Virus record (IMG/VR): IMGVR_UViG_3300033150_001069
Coordinates: 1-21,983 of that record
Source: a virus
Length of the DNA stretch: 21,983 nucleotides
Direction: 5' to 3' (one strand)
Positions 3,401-19,210 of this stretch are shown in pieces. Numbering within the stretch: position 1 is the stretch's first letter; every line of letters starts with the position of its first letter. The translations under genes and the position numbers were made by a program. The notes beneath the pieces are model-generated. The model had not been told where the DNA came from and did not search any database. It saw nothing but the letters and a program-made list of their open reading frames with translations.

Positions 3401-3796
3401 TTAGCTGCTCGGCGTCACCTGCGACACCGCGCCACGGCTCTTGAACGACGCGGAAAGCAAGACGGCGTCGTCGAGACTCTGCGGCCCCGGCCTCAGGCTC
3501 AGCACTCCGCACGTGCCGGAGTAGCCGTAGCCGGACGAGTCGGTGATCTCGAACGTCAAATCGCTGTCGTTGAACCACGCGTCCTCAAGCGCCGAGAGCG
3601 CCGTATCCGTAGGCACCCAAAGGGCCTCGACGTCGAAGGTGATACGCTTGCGGCCCTGCTGCCAGTTGTCCCACCCGTTATCGTTCCGGGTGGTGATGTC
3701 CTGCTCGTCGGCCTCAAGGGACGGCTCGACGTTTCGGGCGTAGCCCACGGTCTCGCCGCCCAGCTTCAGCACGCAGTTGAACCCCTTCTCGGCCAT
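3401..3796 (-). CDS. Major tail (tube) protein
   Basis: This is a 131-residue, beta-rich, slightly acidic protein. Its features are typical of TP901-1-like tail tube proteins: an N-terminal KLGGETVGYARNVEPSLEADEQDITTR strand pattern read in two pieces, then a DNGWDNWQQGRKRITFDVEA core, and a late SGYGYSGTCGVLSLRPG region. The gene follows the DUF3168 tail terminator and precedes the chaperone pair, the canonical place for the tube subunit. The ATG at 3796 has a GAGGAG ribosome site 6-7 bases upstream. Its product should polymerise around the tape measure protein. No immunoglobulin-like extra domain is present at this length. Confidence 0.85.
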   Translation of the reverse strand: MAEKGFNCVLKLGGETVGYARNVEPSLEADEQDITTRNDNGWDNWQQGRKRITFDVEALWVPTDTALSALEDAWFNDSDLTFEITDSSGYGYSGTCGVLSLRPGPQSLDDAVLLSASFKSRGAVSQVTPSS

Positions 3797-4643: not shown

Positions 4644-4920
4644 CGTAGCTACCTGTCGGGCGGTCCCGTTTCTGGAGCATCGCCTGAACGTATCGCGTGC
4701 GCCCGCTATCCACGAAGCCGACCACCTCGTAGAGCGCCCCGCCGGCTTCGAGCAGGTCGCCGACGCGCAGGGGCGTGGAGCTGCGCACGGTCGCCGTCAC
4801 CTCGGCGTCGTGCACGGCCAGGGCGGCGTAAACGGTCTGCGCCTCCCCCAGCGTGGTGGTCCAGCCCCCCTCGCCGTCGGGCGTTCGCGTCGGGCGGTAG
4901 TATCGCAGCGCTTTCAGCAT
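4633..4920 (-). CDS. Head closure / head-tail adaptor protein (SPP1 gp16-like)
   Basis: The 95-residue protein starts at ATG 4920 (MLKALRYYRP), with GGAGG seven bases upstream. A longer in-frame extension to 4983 is Arg/Pro-rich and overlaps the connector gene, so I rejected it. The pattern is a small beta barrel: GGWTTTLGEAQTVYAALAV, STPLRVGDLLEAGGALYEV and GRTRYVQAML. This resembles head-tail adaptor proteins of the SPP1 gp16 / HK97 gp7 type, which close the connector and receive the tail. The start overlaps the connector stop by 7 bases. Assignment rests on the fold pattern and on gene order. Confidence 0.75.
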   Translation of the reverse strand: MLKALRYYRPTRTPDGEGGWTTTLGEAQTVYAALAVHDAEVTATVRSSTPLRVGDLLEAGGALYEVVGFVDSGRTRYVQAMLQKRDRPTGSYDGR

Positions 4921-5423
4921 GGCGGGCCTCCGGCCAGGGATTGTAGGACGGCCATTTCGTCCGTATCGGCCAGGGCGCGCCACTCGACGGCATGGCCGCC
5001 GGCCCGCTCAGACGCCGCGCCGCCTCGCGCGTCGTAGGCGCGCCGGACCAGGCTCAGGATGCAGGACTCCAGCGACGCCGGAATCTCGCTGTATCCGGCG
5101 GTGTAGGCGACGACATACCAGATGGGCTCCCATTCGTCGTCGTGGACGATTGCGTTGCCCCGAACGGCGTAGGACGTAGACGAAATCGAGGAGCCGTCCT
5201 CGGTTTCCACAGAGCTCACAGAGACGACGGGCACCTTCGTCGGCCATAGGCAGCGCTCGCCGCCGAACAGGTGCTCCTCGACCTCCTGTTGGGACAGAAG
5301 CACGCCCCACTGGCCCTCGACCCACGATTCCACCCCGTCCAGGAGCGCCTGAATGAGGGTGTCCTCGTCGGTGCCCGCCACCTGGAGCATGGCTTTTGCG
5401 AGGTCAAGACTCACAACGCTCAT
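4914..5423 (-). CDS. gp6-like head-tail connector protein
   Basis: The 169-residue protein begins with two helices (LDLAKAMLQVAGTDEDTLIQ, ALLDGVESWVEGQWGVLL) and has a middle strand region followed by YVVAYTAGY and a C-terminal helix (LESCILSLVRRAYDARGG). The AYTAGY-x-IP-x-x-L-x-x-x-I pattern is a hallmark of HK97 gp6-like connectors, which form the ring below the portal. The ATG at 5423 has GGAGGG about 8 bases upstream and overlaps the previous small gene by 20 bases. It is the first neck gene after the accessory block, so the structural order resumes here. Confidence 0.9.
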   Translation of the reverse strand: MSVVSLDLAKAMLQVAGTDEDTLIQALLDGVESWVEGQWGVLLSQQEVEEHLFGGERCLWPTKVPVVSVSSVETEDGSSISSTSYAVRGNAIVHDDEWEPIWYVVAYTAGYSEIPASLESCILSLVRRAYDARGGAASERAGGHAVEWRALADTDEMAVLQSLAGGPPC

Positions 5424-6256: not shown

Positions 6257-6590
6257 TTGCACGTCCCTCCCAACGCAGACGCGCCAGTTCGCGCATCGCC
6301 TCGTTGAACTGCGCCGCCGGGCCGTCCACGGGCCGCCCCTTCTCCAGCGCCGCGCGCCAAGCGTCCAGGGCGGCGCGCGCCGTGGCCCGCCACCGTTCGA
6401 TCTCGGCGGCATGTTCGTCGTCAATCAACCCCGCCTTCCGGGCATCGGCCAGCACCCGCAGCGTGGCGGCGTAGGCGTCCACCGCGTTGCGAAGCTGCGC
6501 CCGTGGCGAGGCGCAGCCCACCAGCACCAGCAGCACACAGGCCGCCAGCGCGGTGGTGCACAGCAGCTCCAGTGTCGGCGTCCGCTTCAT
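6243..6590 (-). CDS. Phage-encoded putative lipoprotein
   Basis: The 115-residue protein has a lipoprotein signal peptide: a basic N-terminus (MKR), a hydrophobic core (CTTALAACVLLVLVGC), and a lipobox LVGC with Cys26. The mature part is a long Ala/Arg/Glu helix (residues about 30-110). The residue after the lipid-bearing Cys is Ala and the next is Ser, so there is no inner-membrane retention Asp at +2. In phages, small lipoproteins are either outer spanins (Rz1) or superinfection-exclusion factors. This one is longer and more helical than a classical Rz1 and is not nested in an Rz gene, so neither role is proven. It starts on an ATGA overlap with the methyltransferase stop. Confidence 0.7.
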   Translation of the reverse strand: MKRTPTLELLCTTALAACVLLVLVGCASPRAQLRNAVDAYAATLRVLADARKAGLIDDEHAAEIERWRATARAALDAWRAALEKGRPVDGPAAQFNEAMRELARLRWEGRANVHR

Positions 6591-7195
6591 GCTTCGCCTC
6601 CCTTCTCGCGCGAAACCTTATCCACGTAGGCGCAGCAATGGTGCGGCGCGCCCTCGAAGGCATGCGCCTCGCCCCAGTGCGCCAGGAACTCGCACAGCTC
6701 GTCGTCGCTGCGCCACCCCGTGGCGTGGCGATCATCCCGCTGCGCCGCCTCGCTCGGCATTCCACGGGGCACGGTCACAATCACGCGCCGCCTCGCAATC
6801 GCGGCCAGCAGGTCCATCAGCTCGGCGGGACGGGCGTAGTGCTCCAGGAGCTGGCCGGCGAACACCGTGTCGAACGCGCCCCGCATAGCCGGGCCGATCA
6901 CGGCGATGTCGCCGCAGAGCCAGAGCCGCCCCGGGCGGTCCTTCCGCGCCCGCGCGATGGCGATTTCGGATACGTCTACCCCGACGTAGATGGGCACGCG
7001 CGGCAGGTAGTCGGCCAGGGCTCCGAACGCACACCCCACGTCGAGCACCGAGCCGGTGCAGAGGGCCGCCACGGCGCGGTATTCGTCCGGGTGATCCCTT
7101 AGGTCGCCACGGTCGAGGTATCGGCGCACCTTGCTTTCCCACCAGCGCCGATCATCCTCTGAAAGGCGCAACGGACTTGTTCGGGTATCGGCCAT
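6587..7195 (-). CDS. Class I SAM-dependent methyltransferase, accessory
   Basis: The 202-residue protein starts at ATG 7195 (MADTRTSPLR). It has methyltransferase motif I at residues 49-58 (SVLDVGCAFGAL-type), an acidic end of strand two in VGVDVSEIA (71-79), GDIAV at 95-99, and a motif-IV-like FDTVFAGQLLEHY (108-120). This is the small-molecule / glycan type rather than a DNA methyltransferase, because no NPPY or SPPY motif is present. It overlaps the end of the glycosyltransferase gene by 97 bases, and a methyltransferase coupled to a glycosyltransferase suggests methylation of the sugar product or of the modified protein. That link is inference. The ribosome site is weak (AAAGAAAG), so translation may depend on the upstream gene. 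Confidence 0.8.
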   Translation of the reverse strand: MADTRTSPLRLSEDDRRWWESKVRRYLDRGDLRDHPDEYRAVAALCTGSVLDVGCAFGALADYLPRVPIYVGVDVSEIAIARARKDRPGRLWLCGDIAVIGPAMRGAFDTVFAGQLLEHYARPAELMDLLAAIARRRVIVTVPRGMPSEAAQRDDRHATGWRSDDELCEFLAHWGEAHAFEGAPHHCCAYVDKVSREKGGEA

Positions 7196-9165
7196 GTTAC
7201 TTTCTTTACCAGTCCATCGGCGCACTCGCCCACCTGCCCCGGCTGCCACCTGTGCCATGCCTCGCGGCGGTGCCGGGGCGAGCCGTCGCGCCGCTCGTAG
7301 AACGTATGCTTCTGCTCCATCAGATCGCGCGGAAGCGCGTGCCCCAGGTGGTAGATTACGCACTCGGGCACCTGCTCGGCGGCCTCGCGCGAGGTGTCGA
7401 GGTCGTACAATCGGTTCCCGCTGGCGTCCACCGGCGTCGGGTGCCGCAGGAACCGATAGCTGCCCCGCCAGACGCTCCAGCGGTAGTGGGGGCAGACCGA
7501 ACCGAAAGGCTCCAGGGGATAGCCCCATCGCCGCCCGGAGTTGAGCTCCGGCGTGTCCACGATCCAGTGGTCGAGGTCGTGCCAGAGCGTCACCCAGCGG
7601 GGGGAGCCGAAGGGCGGGTCGGCTTCGAGCCAGCGGTCCAGGCCGACCCAAATCTCGTCCGCGTCGAGGAGCAGTTGGCGGTTCCCGCGCACGTGCGCCG
7701 CCACCCAAGAGCGCATCTCCAGCTTGTCGGCCCACACGGGCCGGGCCTCGATGGTGATCTTGCCGTCCGGGTCGTCCATCGCCCGGAGCTGCTCCAGGAC
7801 GCCACGCTCAGGGTAGTCTTTCCAGAGCGTCGTCGGGCCGTAGGCGATGATGATCTCGTCCACGTGTGGATATACCGCCTGCACGGCGTCCACGGCGGTC
7901 GGGGTGGCATAGCAGATCATGTGCGCAGACACGGCGGGGCGGCGCGTAACGTGGTAGGGCACGCCCTCCAGCCGCCGCGCCATAGCGTCGAGCCCGTAGG
8001 TCCGCACCGCCCAGGCCCGGTCCCGGTCGGGGACTCGGCGAGGCTTCGCCGCCAGGTCGGCGACGGCGCGCGCGAAGGCCCGCTCGTCGCCGTTCGGGAC
8101 GTAGACCAGGCGGTCGCCGTAGGCGTCGCGCAGCACGGGCAGGTCGTAGACGATACAGGGGGTGCCCACCGCCAGGGCCTCCATCGGCACCATGCCGAAG
8201 CCCTCAAAGCGGCTGGGGGCGAGCACCGCCACGGCGTCGCGCAGGACGCGGAACTTCTCCTCGTCCGGGACCTGGCCGGCGTTGACCAGCTCGTGGCCCT
8301 TCGCCGGCGTCCCGCGTATCTGTTGGCCGACGTTCACCAGGTCCAGGGGGGCGTCTACCTCGCAGACGGCGCGCCAGGCCGTGTCGGCACCCTTATAGTC
8401 TGACGACCGCCCGACGCGCGCCATGTAGGGCTTGCCGCGCCGCCTCGGGTCCTGCGGGGCTCGGAGCGCCCTTTCCAGGGCGTCCGTATTGATGGCCGGC
8501 GGGAGCCACGTGCCGGGAGCGTCCGGCATGTCCACCCAGCGGCGCAGGTATTCCAGGCTCAGGGGGCTGTTGGCGATGAAGAACTGCGCCCGCTTCACCA
8601 CGTCCGGGGGGTTCGCCGCTTCGAGTCGCCGCGCGTAGTCGGGAGCATACTGCTGGACCCAGTTCGGGGTCTCGAAGTTCCAGGCCACCAGCGGACGCCC
8701 CATCTGCTCGGCGTAGCGCAGAGCCTCCCGCCCCAGGTCGCCCTTGCTGTCGGTGACCACCACGTCTATGTCGGCGGGAACGCGCGCCCGCGCAGTCAAC
8801 ACGCGCAGGCGGTCGTGCGGGCGGTAGTCGTCGGCCCACGCGGGGGCGCGGTCTGTGAAGATGAACACCTCCGCACCGTTGCGGGCCAGGCAGAGGGCGT
8901 ATTGCCAGACGTGCAGGCGACCGCCGCTGTAATGGGGGCTCGTGTGCATCCAGATGCCGATGCGAGGTCGGGTCGAACGGGCCGGCGCGTTCGGCAGCCG
9001 CCCGTCGGCGGGGCGGGGTTCACGCTTCGGGCCGATGTAGCCGCGCACCAGCAGGCGGGCCGCCTCGTGCCGGTTCACGATGTCCACGAGCTGGCCGGCG
9101 CGGATACGCAAGTCGCGGCCCCTCGCGTCCTTGCACGCGAAATCCTGCAACGCCCGGAACCACAT
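7099..9165 (-). CDS. Two-domain glycosyltransferase (GT4-like plus GT-A-like) with an N-terminal phage neck-type domain
   Basis: This 688-residue protein has three parts. Residues 1-46 (RALQDFACKDARGRDLRIRAGQ and following) resemble the short RALRDF-type domains often encoded between capsid and connector genes. Residues about 66-400 form a GT-B, GT4-like transferase: a Gly-rich YSGGRLHVW near 79-87, GRSSDYKG at 252-259, and the E-x7-E motif at Glu321 and Glu329 in EGFGMVPMEA. Residues about 412-620 look like a GT-A transferase with the metal-binding DADE at 501-504. The start is ATG 9165, with a weak site. The gene follows the major capsid gene and a strong inverted repeat, and overlaps a methyltransferase. 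The likely role is transfer of sugars to virion protein or host surface glycan; donor and acceptor are unknown. Confidence 0.85.
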   Translation of the reverse strand: MWFRALQDFACKDARGRDLRIRAGQLVDIVNRHEAARLLVRGYIGPKREPRPADGRLPNAPARSTRPRIGIWMHTSPHYSGGRLHVWQYALCLARNGAEVFIFTDRAPAWADDYRPHDRLRVLTARARVPADIDVVVTDSKGDLGREALRYAEQMGRPLVAWNFETPNWVQQYAPDYARRLEAANPPDVVKRAQFFIANSPLSLEYLRRWVDMPDAPGTWLPPAINTDALERALRAPQDPRRRGKPYMARVGRSSDYKGADTAWRAVCEVDAPLDLVNVGQQIRGTPAKGHELVNAGQVPDEEKFRVLRDAVAVLAPSRFEGFGMVPMEALAVGTPCIVYDLPVLRDAYGDRLVYVPNGDERAFARAVADLAAKPRRVPDRDRAWAVRTYGLDAMARRLEGVPYHVTRRPAVSAHMICYATPTAVDAVQAVYPHVDEIIIAYGPTTLWKDYPERGVLEQLRAMDDPDGKITIEARPVWADKLEMRSWVAAHVRGNRQLLLDADEIWVGLDRWLEADPPFGSPRWVTLWHDLDHWIVDTPELNSGRRWGYPLEPFGSVCPHYRWSVWRGSYRFLRHPTPVDASGNRLYDLDTSREAAEQVPECVIYHLGHALPRDLMEQKHTFYERRDGSPRHRREAWHRWQPGQVGECADGLVKKVTWPIPEQVRCAFQRMIGAGGKARCADTSTVAT

Positions 9166-9238: not shown

Positions 9239-10594
9239 TCAGCTCGTGCCGGAGCTGAGAATCGCCATCGCGCGGGGCTGCCAGAGGCGGCCGCCCATCA
9301 CGCAATAGACGACGAACGCCATCAGGTTCTCGCGGAACTTATAGTGCTCGCTCCGCTTCACGACGACCTCCTCCTCGGACGCGATGGCGTACTCGGAGAA
9401 GTCGCCGAAAATCACGTCGCCGTCGCTCCCCAACTCAGGCTGACGCAGCGACACCAAGTAGGGGTAGCCCACCAGGCGGTCGCGCGGTCCGTCAGCCGTG
9501 GTAGCAGAGAACAGGGGCCGGTCCTGGGCGTCCGTCTCCAGCTCCAGGGTCAGCTCCACGTCGTCGTGGATCATAAAGCGCGCGTTGCTCCGATGGTGCG
9601 GAAGCACGGCGTGCTTCAGATTCACAAGGTCGGTGTAGCCGACGGAGTTGGCCGTCGCGCGCGCGACCGTGCGAATGCCGGTCGTGTTCACGATGCCGAG
9701 CGGTTCCCCGGTGCCGGTGCCGTTGATGAAAAGGTTGTCCAGGTAGGACTGGACGCCGGCGCGGTAGAGCCGGGCGAGGAGCGCCTCAAGGTCGATGGCA
9801 GACCGGGACAGCATACGGATACTGATTTCCGTATAGCCGGCCACCTCGTAGGTGGGAATCTCGATCTGCTCGAACTCGGGCTGGGTCTCCGGCTTGGAGG
9901 CCCCCTCGCTGATCACCTGGAACGACATGCCCCCGTATTCGTTGCTATCCGTCTGCACGAGACGGGGGAGCGTGACGTTGCCGGTGCGGCACGGGATGAC
10001 GGTTGCCAGACCCATAATATGGGTCGGCTCCGTCGGCAGCTCCAGCAGGCGGGCGATGTATTCCTCCGGGACGAGGTTTTCCTCGCCGCTGCCGGAGGAG
10101 CCGTCAGACAGAAGGGCTTTGCCCAGCGCCATCGCCGCCGCCCAGCGCTTCCCAAAGAACGCCGCGCGCAGGTGGGCCGGCACGCAGATTCCGTCCGCGC
10201 CCTCCTTGAACTTCGGGCTCTTTGGGGTCAGGACCTCCCTTTCGCGGTCGCTCAGGCTCTTGCCCTGCATGTAGCGCAGGAAAGCCCGCTCCTGTGCGAT
10301 GGCCTCTTTCATCGGGTCGCGCGGCGTAGCCGGCGCGACGGGGGCCACGTCACCGCCATTCTGCACGGTAGCGGCAGCACGCCAGCCGCCGATGCGCTGC
10401 CGCCGCTCCTTGGCCTTGATCTCCTGGTCAATCTGCGCCTCCAGGGCGTCGTACTCCTGCTCCTTGGCCTTCAGGTCGGCGGCGATCTTGCCCTTCACCG
10501 CCTCGTCTTCGGCCTCGGCCAGTTTCCGGCGCATGGCGTCCAGCTCGTCCAGGAGCGCCTCGGCCTTAGCCAAAAGCTGGTCGAGTTCCTCCAT
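9239..10594 (-). CDS. Major capsid protein (HK97 fold)
   Basis: This 451-residue protein has an N-terminal coiled-coil (residues about 2-66, LLAKAEALLDELDAMRRKLA and onward), the delta domain usually removed by the prohead protease. A linker rich in Ala/Pro follows (about 70-95), then the HK97-type core. Typical elements are EEYIARLLELP, VIPCRTGNVTLPRL, ISEGASKPETQPEFEQI, a YLDNLFINGTGTGEPLGI loop near the middle, and a C-terminal VVYCVMGGRLWQPRAM. ATG 10594 has a GAGGAG site. The length, including the delta domain, is usual for the family. The gene is directly downstream of the protease that should cleave it. Confidence 0.93.
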   Translation of the reverse strand: MEELDQLLAKAEALLDELDAMRRKLAEAEDEAVKGKIAADLKAKEQEYDALEAQIDQEIKAKERRQRIGGWRAAATVQNGGDVAPVAPATPRDPMKEAIAQERAFLRYMQGKSLSDREREVLTPKSPKFKEGADGICVPAHLRAAFFGKRWAAAMALGKALLSDGSSGSGEENLVPEEYIARLLELPTEPTHIMGLATVIPCRTGNVTLPRLVQTDSNEYGGMSFQVISEGASKPETQPEFEQIEIPTYEVAGYTEISIRMLSRSAIDLEALLARLYRAGVQSYLDNLFINGTGTGEPLGIVNTTGIRTVARATANSVGYTDLVNLKHAVLPHHRSNARFMIHDDVELTLELETDAQDRPLFSATTADGPRDRLVGYPYLVSLRQPELGSDGDVIFGDFSEYAIASEEEVVVKRSEHYKFRENLMAFVVYCVMGGRLWQPRAMAILSSGTS

Positions 10595-10607: not shown

Positions 10608-12155
10608 TCACTTCAACATGTCGGCGCGTGCCTTCGCCAACCGGAGCCGCTTGCGGCGCAGCTCCACCAAGCCGTCGGCGATCACCCGGTCCTGTCCCTC
10701 CCCGGACGGGCAAGACGCCAAAAGACCGCGCAGCCCCTCGGCGCTCTCCTCAAGCTGTGCCAGGAGCCGCTTGGCACCCTCCACGTCGTCGGCGGCCTGC
10801 GTGCGACCGGGGACGACGGCACACGCGAGGCGCACCAACTCTGTGGCGCGGTCCACCACCTCTTTCTTGGTTCCCGTGATCATCGCCAGTTCGTTCATGG
10901 GCACCAGGGTAATGGTGCCCTCGATGAGGGCCGCCTCGTGAATCGCGCGCACCATGCGGCCCTCCAGCTCGATGTCCTCGGCACGTATTTCACGATAACC
11001 GACGCTGAGGCCCCGCGCAATACCCGCGTCCGTCTTGGCGCGGGTTTCCTGCGCGAGGGGCGTATCCAGATAGGTAGCGTCGATGAACAGGCCGTGTTCG
11101 TCCTCGCGCGCCGTGAACGAACCGACCACCTCCGTTACGTCGCCGCCGTAGGCAGCGTGCTTCACCATGAGGGGCCAGGTGTCGTGTTCCTTGAGACTCT
11201 TTGCGAACGCACCCGGCATGAACATGTCGCCCCCGTAGTCGACGTTGCCGTAGACCGCCAGGTAGCCGTAGAACCCGCCGGTGTCGCCCTCGCCCTTGGC
11301 CTGGATGTCGGGCGCGGCGCTGGCCATAGCCTTCACGGCCCGCTTCGCCAGCAGGTCCACGGCGGTCTTGAACTCGGGCGGTTCCTTGTCGAAGCGCTTA
11401 TACTCGGCCGCCAGGTGATTGTAGCCGGCCCGGCGCACGGTATCAGACGCGCCCTTCGGGAAACCCTGATTGAGTCGGGACATAGCCGCTTTCAGGGCCG
11501 CCCAAACGAGCGTCCCGTCGGGGCGGTGGTGGGCGAACGAATAGTCGTCCTTCGTGTCGCCCTCGCCGCGCACGAACAGGGCCATGTTGTCGCGGAGCTG
11601 CTCGACCGTCGCCTCTTTGACGGCGGCCCCGGCGTCCCACTCGGCGTCCTCCGGCGCAAGCGGGCACCCTTCGTGCCGGCTGGCAGGGATAGCTTTCCAC
11701 TGCTCACTTTGCTTGCCCCCTGCCGCCTTCTGCCCTGGTCCTGGCCTTTCTGCCCGGCGCATCTCGCCGCCGCAACTCGGGCACTTTATGTCGCGGCAGT
11801 GGTCCGTGCTTTTGAGCGTATAGCCACAGTCGAGGCATTCGCACATATAGGTGCTTTCCGCGCCCGTTTCTTGTGGCACCAGGGGCGCTCCGCCCGCATC
11901 GCCCGTCAGCGCCTTGCCCGACGCGGCGGGCTCGAACGAACCGCTGGCCTCCGCGCAGTGCGCCCGCGCGTCGTCAGCGTCCCACTCCGCTTTCGGGTAA
12001 CGCATAGCCTGCAACTCGACGTCCCCTTCGTCTGTCACGCCCCATATAGCATCAATCCGCTTGCCGTCGTGCTTGCGCCAGTTGTTTTCTCGCCGGAAAC
12101 GGTCATAGCGGTCCGGGGGCCGGAGCCTGCAACTATGTTCATTCGGGTACGGCAT
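10608..12155 (-). CDS. HK97-family prohead protease with N-terminal zinc ribbon and accessory domain
   Basis: The 515-residue protein starts at ATG 12155 (MPYPNEHSC), with a strong GGAGGAG; the longer frame to 12257 is rejected. Residues about 1-78 form a small domain beginning NEHSCRLRPP. A zinc ribbon follows, with Cys107/Cys110 and Cys125/Cys128 plus extra Cys105 and Cys120. A helical XkdF-like region at about 155-260 has HHRPDGTLVWAALKAAM. The protease core at about 285-430 carries VKHAAYGG with His333 and RGLSVGY with Ser384, the expected catalytic pair of U35/HK97 proteases. The enzyme should cleave the capsid delta domain during head maturation. It is about twice the length of a minimal HK97 protease because of the N-terminal additions. 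Confidence 0.88.
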   Translation of the reverse strand: MPYPNEHSCRLRPPDRYDRFRRENNWRKHDGKRIDAIWGVTDEGDVELQAMRYPKAEWDADDARAHCAEASGSFEPAASGKALTGDAGGAPLVPQETGAESTYMCECLDCGYTLKSTDHCRDIKCPSCGGEMRRAERPGPGQKAAGGKQSEQWKAIPASRHEGCPLAPEDAEWDAGAAVKEATVEQLRDNMALFVRGEGDTKDDYSFAHHRPDGTLVWAALKAAMSRLNQGFPKGASDTVRRAGYNHLAAEYKRFDKEPPEFKTAVDLLAKRAVKAMASAAPDIQAKGEGDTGGFYGYLAVYGNVDYGGDMFMPGAFAKSLKEHDTWPLMVKHAAYGGDVTEVVGSFTAREDEHGLFIDATYLDTPLAQETRAKTDAGIARGLSVGYREIRAEDIELEGRMVRAIHEAALIEGTITLVPMNELAMITGTKKEVVDRATELVRLACAVVPGRTQAADDVEGAKRLLAQLEESAEGLRGLLASCPSGEGQDRVIADGLVELRRKRLRLAKARADMLK

Positions 12156-12171
12156 GTTCACTCCTCCGAGG

Positions 12172-12432
12172 CTAAAGGATGGCGTCCGGGGGCGGCGGGT
12201 CGGGCTGGAAGGGCTCGACGACCGTCGCCTCCATCCGCTCGGCAACATGGCGCACAAGCGCCGCCTCCGGGGCCGGGTCGTATTCGAAGCCCCCTGTCAG
12301 TGCTCTACGCAGCACGTGCACGCGGCCCACCACCTCGGCGAGCAGCGCCAGCTCGGGCGCGTCGTCGCACCGCCACTCGTTCCCGTCGTAGGTCAGATCG
12401 TAGCCTTTACAGTCGAGCCGCGCAGGTCTCAT
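12172..12432 (-). CDS. Small protein of unknown function between head protein and protease
   Basis: This 86-residue acidic protein has no signal or membrane segment. It starts MRPARLDCKGYDLTYDGNEW, with a possible small beta hairpin, followed by a helix (LALLAEVVGRVHVLRRALTG) and a Pro/Asp-rich end (FQPDPPPPDAIL). ATG 12432 has a GGGGAG site; the gaps to the neighbours are 15 and 16 bases. The protein could be a minor head or scaffolding-type factor because of position, but I recognise no family. Confidence 0.6.
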   Translation of the reverse strand: MRPARLDCKGYDLTYDGNEWRCDDAPELALLAEVVGRVHVLRRALTGGFEYDPAPEAALVRHVAERMEATVVEPFQPDPPPPDAIL

Positions 12433-12447
12433 TATCCACTCTCCCCG

Positions 12448-14253
12448 TCACAGCAGCCCTCGGAGAACGCCGAGGGTCCAGTTGAAATAGAACGGGTCCT
12501 GCCGGGCGAACCGCTCAGGATAGTGGAGGAGCTGCACGCCCATGCTGAGAACCTCCGTCGCATACGTGCCGCCCGCCTTCGGGGTGCCGTAGAGCTTGGC
12601 ACAGTATTCCTCCGGCCACGCGCCCTCGTCAAAGGGAAGGTAGATTTCGTCGGGCAGGTATTCCTTGTCGGGGAAGTCCACGGCCAGCTTCCGGGGCGGC
12701 CCGCCGTTCCATCGTAGCATCAGCAGCTCCTCGCAGCGGTTGTGCGCGTGCGGGCTCCACTCCTCGATGTGGTGCCCGAGCTCGTGGCTGAAGTCGTAGG
12801 CCATGCGCCGCTCGGCCAAGCGCACGGTGTTCTTGGTGCTGCCGTAGCTGCCCCGCGTCCCGGGCACCAGCTCGAAGACGACGTGTTGCTTCTCCAGGAC
12901 GTCGGCCCCGTCCAAGCTCCGGTCCACCAGGGAGTGGACGTGCTCCAGGCCCTCCCGCGCCTTGTCTTTCCACGCCTCGGGCACTTCGCGGACGCCGGGC
13001 ACCCTCGACCGGAAGCTGTGCGCCCAGGGGCGCGTCCGGTTCGGCGTCTGCAAAAGCGCCCGCTCGGCCCGTCGCAGGCGGTTGGTGACGCTGCTCAGCT
13101 CGTCCGCAAGCGCGTTGTAGCGCCGCCACAGGGGCTCGTAGTAGCGCTCCATCCAGTCCGTGTGTTCGGGCGAAAACGCGCGGAATGCCTTGGTGGCGCG
13201 GGCGTCCAGTTCGTCCAGCCGGGCCAGGTAGCGGCTCACCAGGGCGCTGGCGCGGTCCCTTTCCAGCGAGTAGATGTCGTCCAGCCGTTCGGCCCGGCGC
13301 AGGAACCAACCCGCGTAGTCGGGCAGGTGCTCCATCGCCTCCGTCAGGGGCATGGCGCGCAGTTCTTCGGGCGGCACGTCCGGTTCGGGCAGGCGCTCGG
13401 GCGCAGGCTCTTCCACGCGGACCCCGATAGATTCCAGGGACGGCGCGATGGTGCAGCGACAGTTGGGGTGCAGGGGCGGGTGCTCGACGACCAGGGGCAG
13501 GCGCATCACCTCCCCGCCGCTCTCGATTTCGGCCCCGGCGGGTAGAATCGGTTCGCCCAGCCGGAACTGGAGCCCGTCCAGCTCCAGGCAGAACGGACAC
13601 AATAGGTCGTCGGCGGTGACCACCCACTCGCCCACCTCCACCCCCACCTCGCGGTAGGCGATGGACGACGCCTCGCAGTGATTCCACACCGTCGCCGTGC
13701 GCGCGAGCAGGCGCGCCCGGGTCCGGGCGCGGACGACGCCCAGCTTGCGGAGAAGCCGCGCCTGTTTCTCCGGCCCCCAGCCCTCGCGTCGCCAGCGGTC
13801 CAGCAGGAACGCAATGCTGTCGCGCGTGGTCCCGGTCTCGACGGTGATAGTGTCGCGCAGGTGCGCCTCCAGCGCCGGGCGTAGTTGCCGCGCCACCAGC
13901 GCCTCGTGCTCGGGCGCAACTGTGAAATCGGCGAACTCCTGGTCGCCCGCCGCCTTGCCGGCCAGAGAGCGGGCAGATTTCGCCGCTGTGGGGCTCCAGA
14001 GTTCGACCGTGCGCTCGACTACGTCGGCCATCATGGCCAGCCCCAGGCGCAGCTCCAGGGCGTAAAGGCGTTCGGCCCACGTCGTCGTCAGGCGCTGCCA
14101 GGGCTCCCGGCGCTCCAGGGCGTCGGCCACCTCCAGCACCTCGCGCCGCACCTCACGCGCCAGGTGCCGCGTGAAGGCCCGTTCCCACCTGGCGGTAATG
14201 CGCGCCGCACGCTCGGCGGTCTGCCGCACGCGCGCGCGCGTCCAGCGCTTCAC
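12448..14253 (-). CDS. MuF-type head morphogenesis protein fused to an HExxH metallopeptidase-like domain
   Basis: The 601-residue protein has an N-terminal helical part and then a MuF / SPP1 gp7 signature at about 210-270: DDLLCPFCLELDG with Cys219 and Cys222, then HPPLHPNCRCTIAP with His262, Cys265 and Cys267. A helical linker of about 150 residues follows. The C-terminal domain contains the zinc-peptidase motif HELGHHIEEW with His490, Glu491 and His494, and a downstream ATEVLSMG with Glu567, a candidate third metal ligand. MuF proteins are minor head components that sit with the portal and are often ejected with DNA. They commonly carry C-terminal effector domains. The ATG start at 14253 overlaps the portal stop (ATGA-type). 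Confidence 0.85.
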   Translation of the reverse strand: MKRWTRARVRQTAERAARITARWERAFTRHLAREVRREVLEVADALERREPWQRLTTTWAERLYALELRLGLAMMADVVERTVELWSPTAAKSARSLAGKAAGDQEFADFTVAPEHEALVARQLRPALEAHLRDTITVETGTTRDSIAFLLDRWRREGWGPEKQARLLRKLGVVRARTRARLLARTATVWNHCEASSIAYREVGVEVGEWVVTADDLLCPFCLELDGLQFRLGEPILPAGAEIESGGEVMRLPLVVEHPPLHPNCRCTIAPSLESIGVRVEEPAPERLPEPDVPPEELRAMPLTEAMEHLPDYAGWFLRRAERLDDIYSLERDRASALVSRYLARLDELDARATKAFRAFSPEHTDWMERYYEPLWRRYNALADELSSVTNRLRRAERALLQTPNRTRPWAHSFRSRVPGVREVPEAWKDKAREGLEHVHSLVDRSLDGADVLEKQHVVFELVPGTRGSYGSTKNTVRLAERRMAYDFSHELGHHIEEWSPHAHNRCEELLMLRWNGGPPRKLAVDFPDKEYLPDEIYLPFDEGAWPEEYCAKLYGTPKAGGTYATEVLSMGVQLLHYPERFARQDPFYFNWTLGVLRGLL

Positions 14254-17248: not shown

Positions 17249-17581
17249 TTACTCCCCCGGAAAGGTCCGCTCGACGTGCTCGGCGGTGATCACGCGCCAG
17301 CCCCAGCCGTGCAGGTAGTCGAGGAACTTGTCGCCGTCCACGACCTCCGGGTCGGCGCACAGGTCCACGTAGACGCCCCGCTCTCCCGGGCGCAGAAGCA
17401 GGACCGCGTGTCCCTCCACCATCAGCACGGCGAGGCTGTAGCCCCCCGTCGCCAAGCGGTGCTCGACGTAGGTGAGCGTGCGCCCGCCGGCGTGCCAGCA
17501 GGCGTTGACGAGAAACGACCTTAGCTCGACGTCGGCGGTCTTTCGCGGCGTGTCGAGCACGGCCAGCGTATGACGCATCAT
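17249..17581 (-). CDS. SpeD-like (S-adenosylmethionine decarboxylase-like) small protein lacking the catalytic serine
   Basis: The 110-residue protein resembles bacterial SpeD/SpeH over most of its length. It has a short first strand (MRHTLAVLD), a helix, then GYSLAVLMVEGHAVLLLRPG and GVYVDLCADPE, a helix (DKFLDYLHGWG), and a final strand ending RVITAEHVER. Against the SES-H-x6-P-x7-D-L block of true enzymes, Glu56, His58, Pro65, Asp73 and Leu74 align without gaps. The Ser that becomes the pyruvoyl group is Gly57, and the catalytic His and Cys positions are Leu62 and Asp77. If homologous, it cannot form the pyruvoyl cofactor. It starts at ATG 17581, overlapping the methyltransferase stop, with GGAGG upstream. 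The family call is from pattern memory; other small alpha/beta folds are possible. Confidence 0.5.
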   Translation of the reverse strand: MMRHTLAVLDTPRKTADVELRSFLVNACWHAGGRTLTYVEHRLATGGYSLAVLMVEGHAVLLLRPGERGVYVDLCADPEVVDGDKFLDYLHGWGWRVITAEHVERTFPGE

Positions 17582-18498
17582 TGCGGCAACCTCCCCACGA
17601 GTAGATATTCGTGAACGCGCGGCAGAATCCGGTGCTTATTCTGCGGGACGCTGAACAGGGTGTTCGTTCCTCCGAGAAGCGTGTCGGGGAGAATGGCGAC
17701 GTCCCAGGGGTCGAACCCGGCGTCGGCCATCGTGCGGAGAATGTCGGCGTGGAAGGGATAGAACCGCCCCTTGTAGCGGAAGTCCCCGACGTTGACGACG
17801 AGCCACGCGCGGGGCGCGGCCTGCGCGCGCATAGCCCGCCACACCTGGGCCATCGACGCGAGAAACTCCTGGTAGGTCAGCCGGGTGAGCTGGCGCGGGT
17901 CGTCGTCGTATTTCTCGACGCACCAGTAGGGGGGCGAGGTGAAACAGAACTGCCAGCCCCGCACCTCGCGCCCTATGGTGCGCGCGTCCTGGTCCCGCAC
18001 CTCCAGGCGCAGCTCCGTGGGCTGGAGCCGCCCGATGACGGCCCGGCAGAAGCGGAGATAATCCTGGCAGACGTCGTAGCCGACATAGTGGAGCCCCAGC
18101 GCATGGGCGACCTGGAGCCGGACGCCGTGGCCGGCGAACGGGTCGCAATAGAGCTGCCCGGGCTCGGCGTAGTATTTGACGGCGAACTCGACGAGCACGG
18201 AGGGCATCACGGAGGCCGCCTTTCCAGGCTTCGCGCCGCGCGATTGCACATGCCCGACGGTGCTTTTCCAGGACGGGTCGGCGGCGGCGTATCGCTGGAG
18301 CGACGGCGAGGAGCCCAGGGCGTAGCGGGCGAGGCCCGTCTCGTCCTGATACTGGAGCACCGTCATGCCGTCCTTGCGGTGGAGCTTGAGTATGCTGCGG
18401 GGGATACAGCGGAAGCGCCGGCGCATACGTCGGCGGTCCCGCCGGCTCCGCGCGAGGGGGCCGGTGACGACTTCGCCCAGCTTCAGCGCCTTAGCCAT
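17578..18498 (-). CDS. DNA methyltransferase (SPPY type, N4-cytosine or N6-adenine)
   Basis: The 306-residue enzyme starts at ATG 18498 (MAKALKLGEV), with AGGAGAG upstream; the in-frame extension to 18549 has no good site. It carries SAM-binding motif I as DPFAGHG at 119-125, a YVGYDVCQ strand at 138-145, and the catalytic motif IV TSPPYW at 187-192. Further conserved blocks are LVVNVGDFRYKGRFYP (233-248) and a C-terminal HEYLLVGR. Motif I precedes motif IV. The sequence alone does not tell whether adenine N6 or cytosine N4 is the target. The basic N-terminus (residues 18-32, eleven Arg) may bind DNA. It overlaps the ParB-like gene by 8 bases. Likely role: protection from host restriction or marking of the phage genome. 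Confidence 0.88.
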   Translation of the reverse strand: MAKALKLGEVVTGPLARSRRDRRRMRRRFRCIPRSILKLHRKDGMTVLQYQDETGLARYALGSSPSLQRYAAADPSWKSTVGHVQSRGAKPGKAASVMPSVLVEFAVKYYAEPGQLYCDPFAGHGVRLQVAHALGLHYVGYDVCQDYLRFCRAVIGRLQPTELRLEVRDQDARTIGREVRGWQFCFTSPPYWCVEKYDDDPRQLTRLTYQEFLASMAQVWRAMRAQAAPRAWLVVNVGDFRYKGRFYPFHADILRTMADAGFDPWDVAILPDTLLGGTNTLFSVPQNKHRILPRVHEYLLVGRLPQ

Positions 18499-19210
18499 CG
18501 TTGCTCTCCTCGCCCTCGCCGTCCTCGTCGCCCAGGACGTCGGCCACAAACGCGGCCAGCTTGTCGGCGAGCAGGTCTCCGGGCCGGGCCAGGATCGCCT
18601 CGCGGAGGCGGTCGGCGTCGTCGGGGTCGACCCACCCCTTGAGGGCGTAGCCGCACTCGAAGGGGACCAGGGTATCGGCCAGGGTCGACGGCTCGTTCTC
18701 GCCGTCGCCCTCAGTCCAGGGGGAGCCGCCCTCCCCCTCGCCGCCGGGAGTCTCGGGGCCGTAGGCGAACACGAACTCTGTTAGGTCGATTTCGGGGAAG
18801 TTGAAGTCCTCCAGCTCGTCGAAGCCGATGCCAGACTCGACGACGAACTCGTAGAGCCCGTCCTCCGTGACCTCGCCGAACTGCGACGTCAGGGCCAGCA
18901 CCTTCCGTTTCGCCTCGGCTATGTCCTTGGCCTCGACTACGGAGACGGGCACGGGCGGCACCTCGTAGCCGTCCTTGGCCATCTCCTGGAGCACCCGAAC
19001 CCGCTGGTGGCCGTTGAGCACATAGCACTTCCCCTCGTGCTCCCATACCGCCACGGGCTCGGAGAAGCCGAGCCGGAGAATCTGCTTGCGGAGCCGCTCG
19101 AAGTTTGCCCTCGACAGGCTTTTCAGGGAGCCCTGAAACGGCTCCAGCTTCTCCAGGGGCCTCGTGTCGGCCCCATCGCACGCCATCTTCACCCGCCGTC
19201 GCTTCGCCAT
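18491..19210 (-). CDS. ParB/Sulfiredoxin-fold nuclease-domain protein
   Basis: This 239-residue protein has a ParB N-domain: a lead-in at about 18-57 (RPLEKLEPFQGSLKSLSR, ILRLGFSEPVAVWEHEGK) and the phosphate-binding motif VLNGHQRVRVLQEM at 64-77. The following EVPPVPVSVVEAKDIAEAKR block is typical of phage ParB-like proteins. The last 70 residues are acidic and low in complexity. No clear helix-turn-helix follows, so it is not a plasmid-partition ParB. Such domains commonly neighbour DNA methyltransferases in phages and may act as nucleases or nucleotide-dependent DNA-binding proteins. It is the first gene of the operon: ATG 19210, with GAGAGG seven bases upstream. Function beyond fold is unknown. 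Confidence 0.85.
   Translation of the reverse strand: MAKRRRVKMACDGADTRPLEKLEPFQGSLKSLSRANFERLRKQILRLGFSEPVAVWEHEGKCYVLNGHQRVRVLQEMAKDGYEVPPVPVSVVEAKDIAEAKRKVLALTSQFGEVTEDGLYEFVVESGIGFDELEDFNFPEIDLTEFVFAYGPETPGGEGEGGSPWTEGDGENEPSTLADTLVPFECGYALKGWVDPDDADRLREAILARPGDLLADKLAAFVADVLGDEDGEGEESNDG

Follow-up and report, generated by a model that had tools for sequence, protein, structure and literature searches.

Glycosylation of the phage particle is documented, in the literature covered here, for a few mycobacteriophages, whose capsid and tail-tube subunits are described as bearing glycans at their C-terminal ends (Freeman et al., 2023, as cited in PMC12619734, PMC11256854 and PMC11600133). Such glycan coats influence antibody recognition (PMC11256854, PMC11600133). 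They may perhaps also influence particle stability or adsorption. The best comparisons for the locus described here are Che8 and the cluster O phages Corndog and Dylan, for which virion glycosylation is reported, in the accounts cited, together with one or more phage-encoded glycosyltransferases and a methyltransferase. The capsid and tail-tube proteins, the reported targets according to the same accounts, both end in Ser in Che8 and Dylan, with the termini ...TGS and ...DGS in Che8 and ...VGS and ...GDS in Dylan, as they do in the present phage. The head-region glycosyltransferases of Corndog are produced in infection and are absent from purified virions, and its authors suspected a modification of the capsid because capsid peptides were under-represented (PMC4351075). 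Cluster O phages thus resemble the phage studied here in carrying glycosyltransferases in the head gene region; however, theirs are separate single glycosyltransferase genes between portal and protease, without a fused N-terminal domain after the capsid gene, and their hosts are actinobacterial. Although phage virion glycosylation itself is already known, the architecture reported below is new.

The window, i.e. the whole 21,983-bp stretch of an IMG/VR virus record that was analysed, contains a siphophage head–tail module encoded on the minus strand, to which all window coordinates below refer. The genes follow the order terminase, portal, Mu-F-like head protein, S78 protease, HK97-type capsid protein and a three-part glycosyltransferase (GT) gene, and then methyltransferase, small ORFs, head–tail adaptor, neck/tail completion proteins, tail tube and tape measure. 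The major capsid protein (9239..10594; Phage_capsid, E 2e-46) ends in ...SSGTS, and its C-terminal Ser codon, AGC, encoding a proposed acceptor, lies at 9242..9244. The GT gene (7099..9165) begins with an ATG preceded by GAGG, 73 bp beyond the capsid gene stop, and its 3' end shares 97 nt with a gene for a 202-residue SAM methyltransferase (6587..7195). The head–tail adaptor (4914..5423; phrog_442, 2.6e-24) is the first connector gene past the glycosylation genes, and the major tail (tube) protein, assigned from position and homology (3401..3796), ends in ...VTPSS, its C-terminal Ser codon (3404..3406) specifying the second proposed acceptor.

As modelled by AlphaFold2 over its full length with an alignment of 29 relatives (pLDDT 90.7), the 688-residue product is predicted to consist of three separately folded parts: an N-domain (residues 1–48; 9022..9165), which is joined by a linker (residues 49–65; 8971..9021; pLDDT < 50 at 49–54) to a GT4 domain of the GT-B type (residues 66–400; 7966..8970), and a GT-A domain (residues 405–675; 7141..7953). 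A Pfam search of the protein matched the GT4 domain only, with PF13692 (4.5e-15, 56.6 bits against a cut-off of 27) and PF00534 (1.9e-14, 54 bits against a cut-off of 26.4), and gave no match at either end. The PDB fold matches of residues 66–400 are MshA, sucrose-phosphate synthase and BshA, at 1e-15 to 1e-11, and both glutamates of the E321-x7-E329 motif (8179..8205) are unchanged across the 29 relatives. The domain shares its GT-B fold, its E-x7-E motif and a Pfam score over the cut-off with the GT4 family of the MshA, TarM and PimA type; unlike these enzymes, it is fused to a GT-A domain and to a phage N-domain. The phage glycosyltransferase family phrog_2170 also matches it (7.5e-14), over residues 191–352 only.

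The C-terminal part, residues 405–688, gave a pLDDT of 92 when modelled alone and combines a GT-A fold with the DxD-type acidic motif DADE (residues 501–504; 7654..7665), the presumed metal-binding motif. D503 is unchanged and D501 and E504 are at least 90% conserved in the 29 relatives, and the motif is degenerate in the relative L039. A fold search with the model placed SunS first (4e-8), SunS and ThuS, both S-glycosyltransferases of glycocin peptides, being followed by the polypeptide GalNAc-transferases; these are the nearest structures and share the fold and the acidic motif, but the matches are modest (TM about 0.46, range 0.3–0.47; identity 10–17%) and membership of these families is not claimed. 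Since PF00535 has no match in the window protein itself, with weak matches in 11 of the 29 relatives, the domain is filed as GT-A-like and not as GT2. The initial annotation, which had placed a 688-residue protein with a GT4-like domain (Glu321/Glu329) and a GT-A-like domain (DADE at 501–504) directly after the capsid gene, was right in its coordinates and residue numbers, and both domain assignments are borne out by these results. It had also proposed the stepwise building of a disaccharide, which is plausible for two transferases in one chain. Two Dylan proteins from the GT region show no detectable homology to the GT-A domain, so the link to the mycobacteriophages is one of analogy.

When 2.9 million viral contigs were scanned, first with the single sequence and then with a profile, relatives of the GT protein were found in about 40 contigs, mostly full-length and with identities of 34–50%. 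No relative was found among 50,697 isolate phages, searched at both the DNA and the protein level, and bacterial genomes contained just distant GT4 proteins, the best of which (L046) stands alone as a GT4 protein in surroundings that resemble a chromosome. The homologues with the same layout beside capsid genes that the initial annotation had called for therefore exist, in many phages among these contigs. Wherever a viral contig extends to the upstream side, at most one gene separates the GT gene from the capsid gene that precedes it. The same holds for L039 and L042, in which the GT lacks the N-domain and the capsids belong to other lineages, and synteny is thus kept while the capsid lineage changes. 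The architecture itself varies: in L010 (7295-9574) the N-domain occurs in two tandem copies ahead of GT4, whereas L025 (6461-9319) and L031 (6936-9797) encode three transferases in one chain of about 952 residues, GT2, GT4 and GT-A, in which the added GT2 follows a short N-terminal segment and precedes GT4. The capsid gene of L040 (2470-3805) is broken into two frames (400 and 53 residues), whereas that of the near-identical L041 is intact, and the break is probably an assembly error. In contigs L171–L178 the first ORF past the capsid gene encodes a conserved 147-residue protein, possibly for decoration, and is followed by a small ORF of 83–108 residues in the same post-capsid position.

Focusing on the ends of the structural proteins, the capsid C-terminus is Ser in 28 of 30 non-redundant GT-bearing genomes and the tail-tube C-terminus is Ser in all nine examined. 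In the same genomes, conserved proteins other than these two end in Ser in 12 of 169 cases (p 2e-22), and the isolate-phage controls do so for two of 13 capsids (p 9e-7) and two of 11 tail tubes, the pattern having been noticed first and tested afterwards in sampled phages that are not fully independent. Seven further GT-bearing loci, reached via the capsid gene, all have the Ser end. The capsid tail past the last conserved Leu is 4–7 residues long, and its penultimate and neighbouring residues vary; the last residue is Ser except in two capsids and is never Thr. The terminal Ser is written with all six codons (TCN and AGY) and is followed by all three stops, which places the constraint on the amino acid and removes a DNA-level cause in the codon or stop context from consideration. 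The capsids of L031 and L036, which carry the GT with another capsid lineage, do not end in Ser, and the capsid of L157, which ends in Leu, is accompanied by a GT fragment of 73 residues only.

Given that capsid and tail tube nearly always end in Ser, as they do in two mycobacteriophages from groups with reported glycosylation, these phages probably coat their own virions with sugars. The locus combines, as a pattern only, phage-encoded glycosyltransferases in or near the late genes with a Ser-ended capsid and tail tube, the features by which virion glycosylation would be recognized. We consider it probable that the three-part protein is a phage-dedicated bifunctional O-glycosyltransferase, with the C-terminal Ser of the capsid and tail-tube subunits as the site at which it assembles a short glycan. 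The enzyme would act in the cytoplasm, where the GT-A domain probably puts the first sugar on the terminal Ser; it is proposed as the starter because its nearest solved folds are enzymes that glycosylate peptides. The GT4 domain, which is predicted to be retaining, would add the next sugar. We infer the acceptor, the order of transfer and the sugars themselves.

The serine rule is strong but not exclusive. Where the neighbourhood has no three-part GT, 11 of 18 related capsids still have the Ser end, by which the proposal that the Ser end is restricted to GT-bearing phages was rejected. Among these 11 Ser-ending cases, five contigs carry other glycosyltransferases and three, two of them short, show none; of five non-Ser contigs searched, four have none and L180, with a capsid ending in Gln, has a GT2 gene. 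The same 11 cases are what favours the possibility that virion glycosylation is real but has its acceptor elsewhere, the terminal Ser being a structural or lineage feature of the capsid and tail proteins. This is unlikely, however, because the Ser end occurs in two unrelated proteins, the capsid and the tail tube, and recurs in other capsid lineages (L039 and L042) as well as in Che8 and Dylan; furthermore, it is kept in 22 of 24 clusters when the capsids are clustered at 50% identity, with tails of variable length and TCN and AGY codons mixed.

In the model, residues 1–48 have their own beta-beta-beta-beta-alpha fold, after which residues 49–60 are disordered. Ten relatives have an extra, separate small gene between the capsid and GT genes that encodes the same N-domain with an SH3-like tail. 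Profiles of the fused and separate N-domains align in hhalign with a score of 68.8 (P 4e-13), as compared with at most 16.1 for 60 column shuffles, and in HMMER searches with the fused N-domain profile the separate genes were found at 1.2e-9, 2e-5 and 4e-4, with no other match in those contigs. With its own fold, a linker and profile kin encoded as separate genes, the segment is more than the start of the GT domain, which is the reading of residues 1–46 that could have undone the initial annotation. A PDB sequence search with the N-domain gave no match. The small post-capsid ORFs of L165 and L170 were dropped as N-domain kin, as hhalign gave them no support. A different GT4-like protein is encoded near the capsid gene in L168 (5230-6345) and L170 (5131-6246), and its start resembles a small post-capsid domain; homology of this start to the N-domain was unsupported by hhalign.

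A weak tblastn match (E 6) fell exactly on the post-capsid gene of the Gordonia phage RayTheFireFly, whose product belongs to phrog_2322 (4.7e-28). In 157 Gordonia and Mycobacterium records the phrog_2322 gene lies just after the capsid gene and before the head–tail adaptor. Its profile aligns with the fused N-domain over 48 columns (hhalign score 47.4, P 4e-9, probability 96), whereas 60 column shuffles reached at most 15.6. The phrog_2322 proteins therefore resemble the fusion in their homologous N-terminal part of about 48 residues and in being encoded directly after the capsid, but they have no GT domains, and their own conserved C-terminal segment is missing from the window protein. As only the first 48 residues align, the fusion shares a domain with phrog_2322 and is not a member of it. 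The name of this family, 'head–tail connector', is given by annotation alone, and many of its records read 'hypothetical'. Of the earlier proposal of a short phage neck-type domain, the homology to a siphophage protein encoded at the same place is thus upheld by the profiles, whereas the name 'neck' has annotation as its only source.

This homology to a capsid-adjacent protein annotated as a head–tail connector is what speaks for the fusion being a head or neck accessory of the virion that carries both transferases on the particle and uses them there or at the host surface. Such a role has a low probability in our judgement: apart from the origin of the connector label in annotation, enzymes that depend on nucleotide sugars would find no donor once outside the cell, and the Corndog precedent is one of head-region glycosyltransferases missing from purified virions (PMC4351075). 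In addition, the ten relatives that encode the separate N-domain protein beside the fusion argue that the fusion is no replacement for it there. The tie between glycosylation and the particle in the initial annotation is accordingly supported through the C-terminal serines, whereas its virion accessory protein is disfavoured by the Corndog case. For the bifunctional O-glycosyltransferase preferred here, the N-terminal 48 residues, which are found elsewhere as a separate small protein at the same spot, would instead recruit the enzyme to the capsid or to head-assembly intermediates, and the enzyme is probably absent from the finished virion.

The neighbouring genes are sugar-building and sugar-decorating genes inside the head gene cluster. 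A methyltransferase homologue is adjacent to or near the GT gene in about 13 relatives. The 73 ORFs that follow the GT gene in relatives encode methyltransferases most often, together with sulfotransferases, GT2 glycosyltransferases and rhamnosyltransferases, an epimerase, a DegT aminotransferase, a PIG-L deacetylase and a pyruvyl transferase. In the window, the methyltransferase from the overlapping gene would cap the glycan. The gene directly past the capsid gene of L013 (7259-8011) joins APS-kinase-like and nucleotidyltransferase-like domains, and the APS-kinase-like part, as needed for sulfation, suggests sulfated virion glycans. That the enzyme instead modifies phage DNA bases against restriction or host surface polysaccharide for a receptor or serotype change, both frequent roles for phage glycosyltransferases (PMC12619734), is improbable in our judgement, as the absence of a thymidylate-synthase-type base-modifying gene from 15 contigs of the GT family, which are fragments, makes DNA modification unlikely, and the capsid adjacency, the late-gene position and the C-terminal serines argue against either substrate.

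For the group as a whole, we see an even chance that these environmental siphophages form a widespread, previously undescribed group whose capsid and tail tube are glycosylated at the C-terminal Ser by a capsid-targeted bifunctional enzyme, and that the Ser-COOH mark has been reached more than once. If this is true, a Ser-COOH end of the MCP and of the tail tube, in a phage that has a GT, could be read from the genome as a general sign that the particles are glycosylated. The GT family suggests that virion glycosylation is common among uncultivated phages. The family offers, as a candidate, an enzyme that carries its own capsid-region domain, together with a specific, testable rule for the acceptor, and a transferase for C-terminal serines, if confirmed, would also be of practical use for joining sugars to proteins.

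The 601-residue head protein of the window (12448-14253) has a Mu-F-like N-terminal part (about residues 158–269) and a long C-terminal part with a HELGHHIE zinc-peptidase-like motif, which may represent a fused metallopeptidase. The S78 prohead protease (10608-12257) carries a 300-residue N-terminal extension with a zinc-ribbon-like CxxC...CxxC stretch and a weak match to DUF7129. Upstream of the terminase genes, a DNA methyltransferase-like gene lies beside a ParB-like gene (17578-18549 and 18491-19210).
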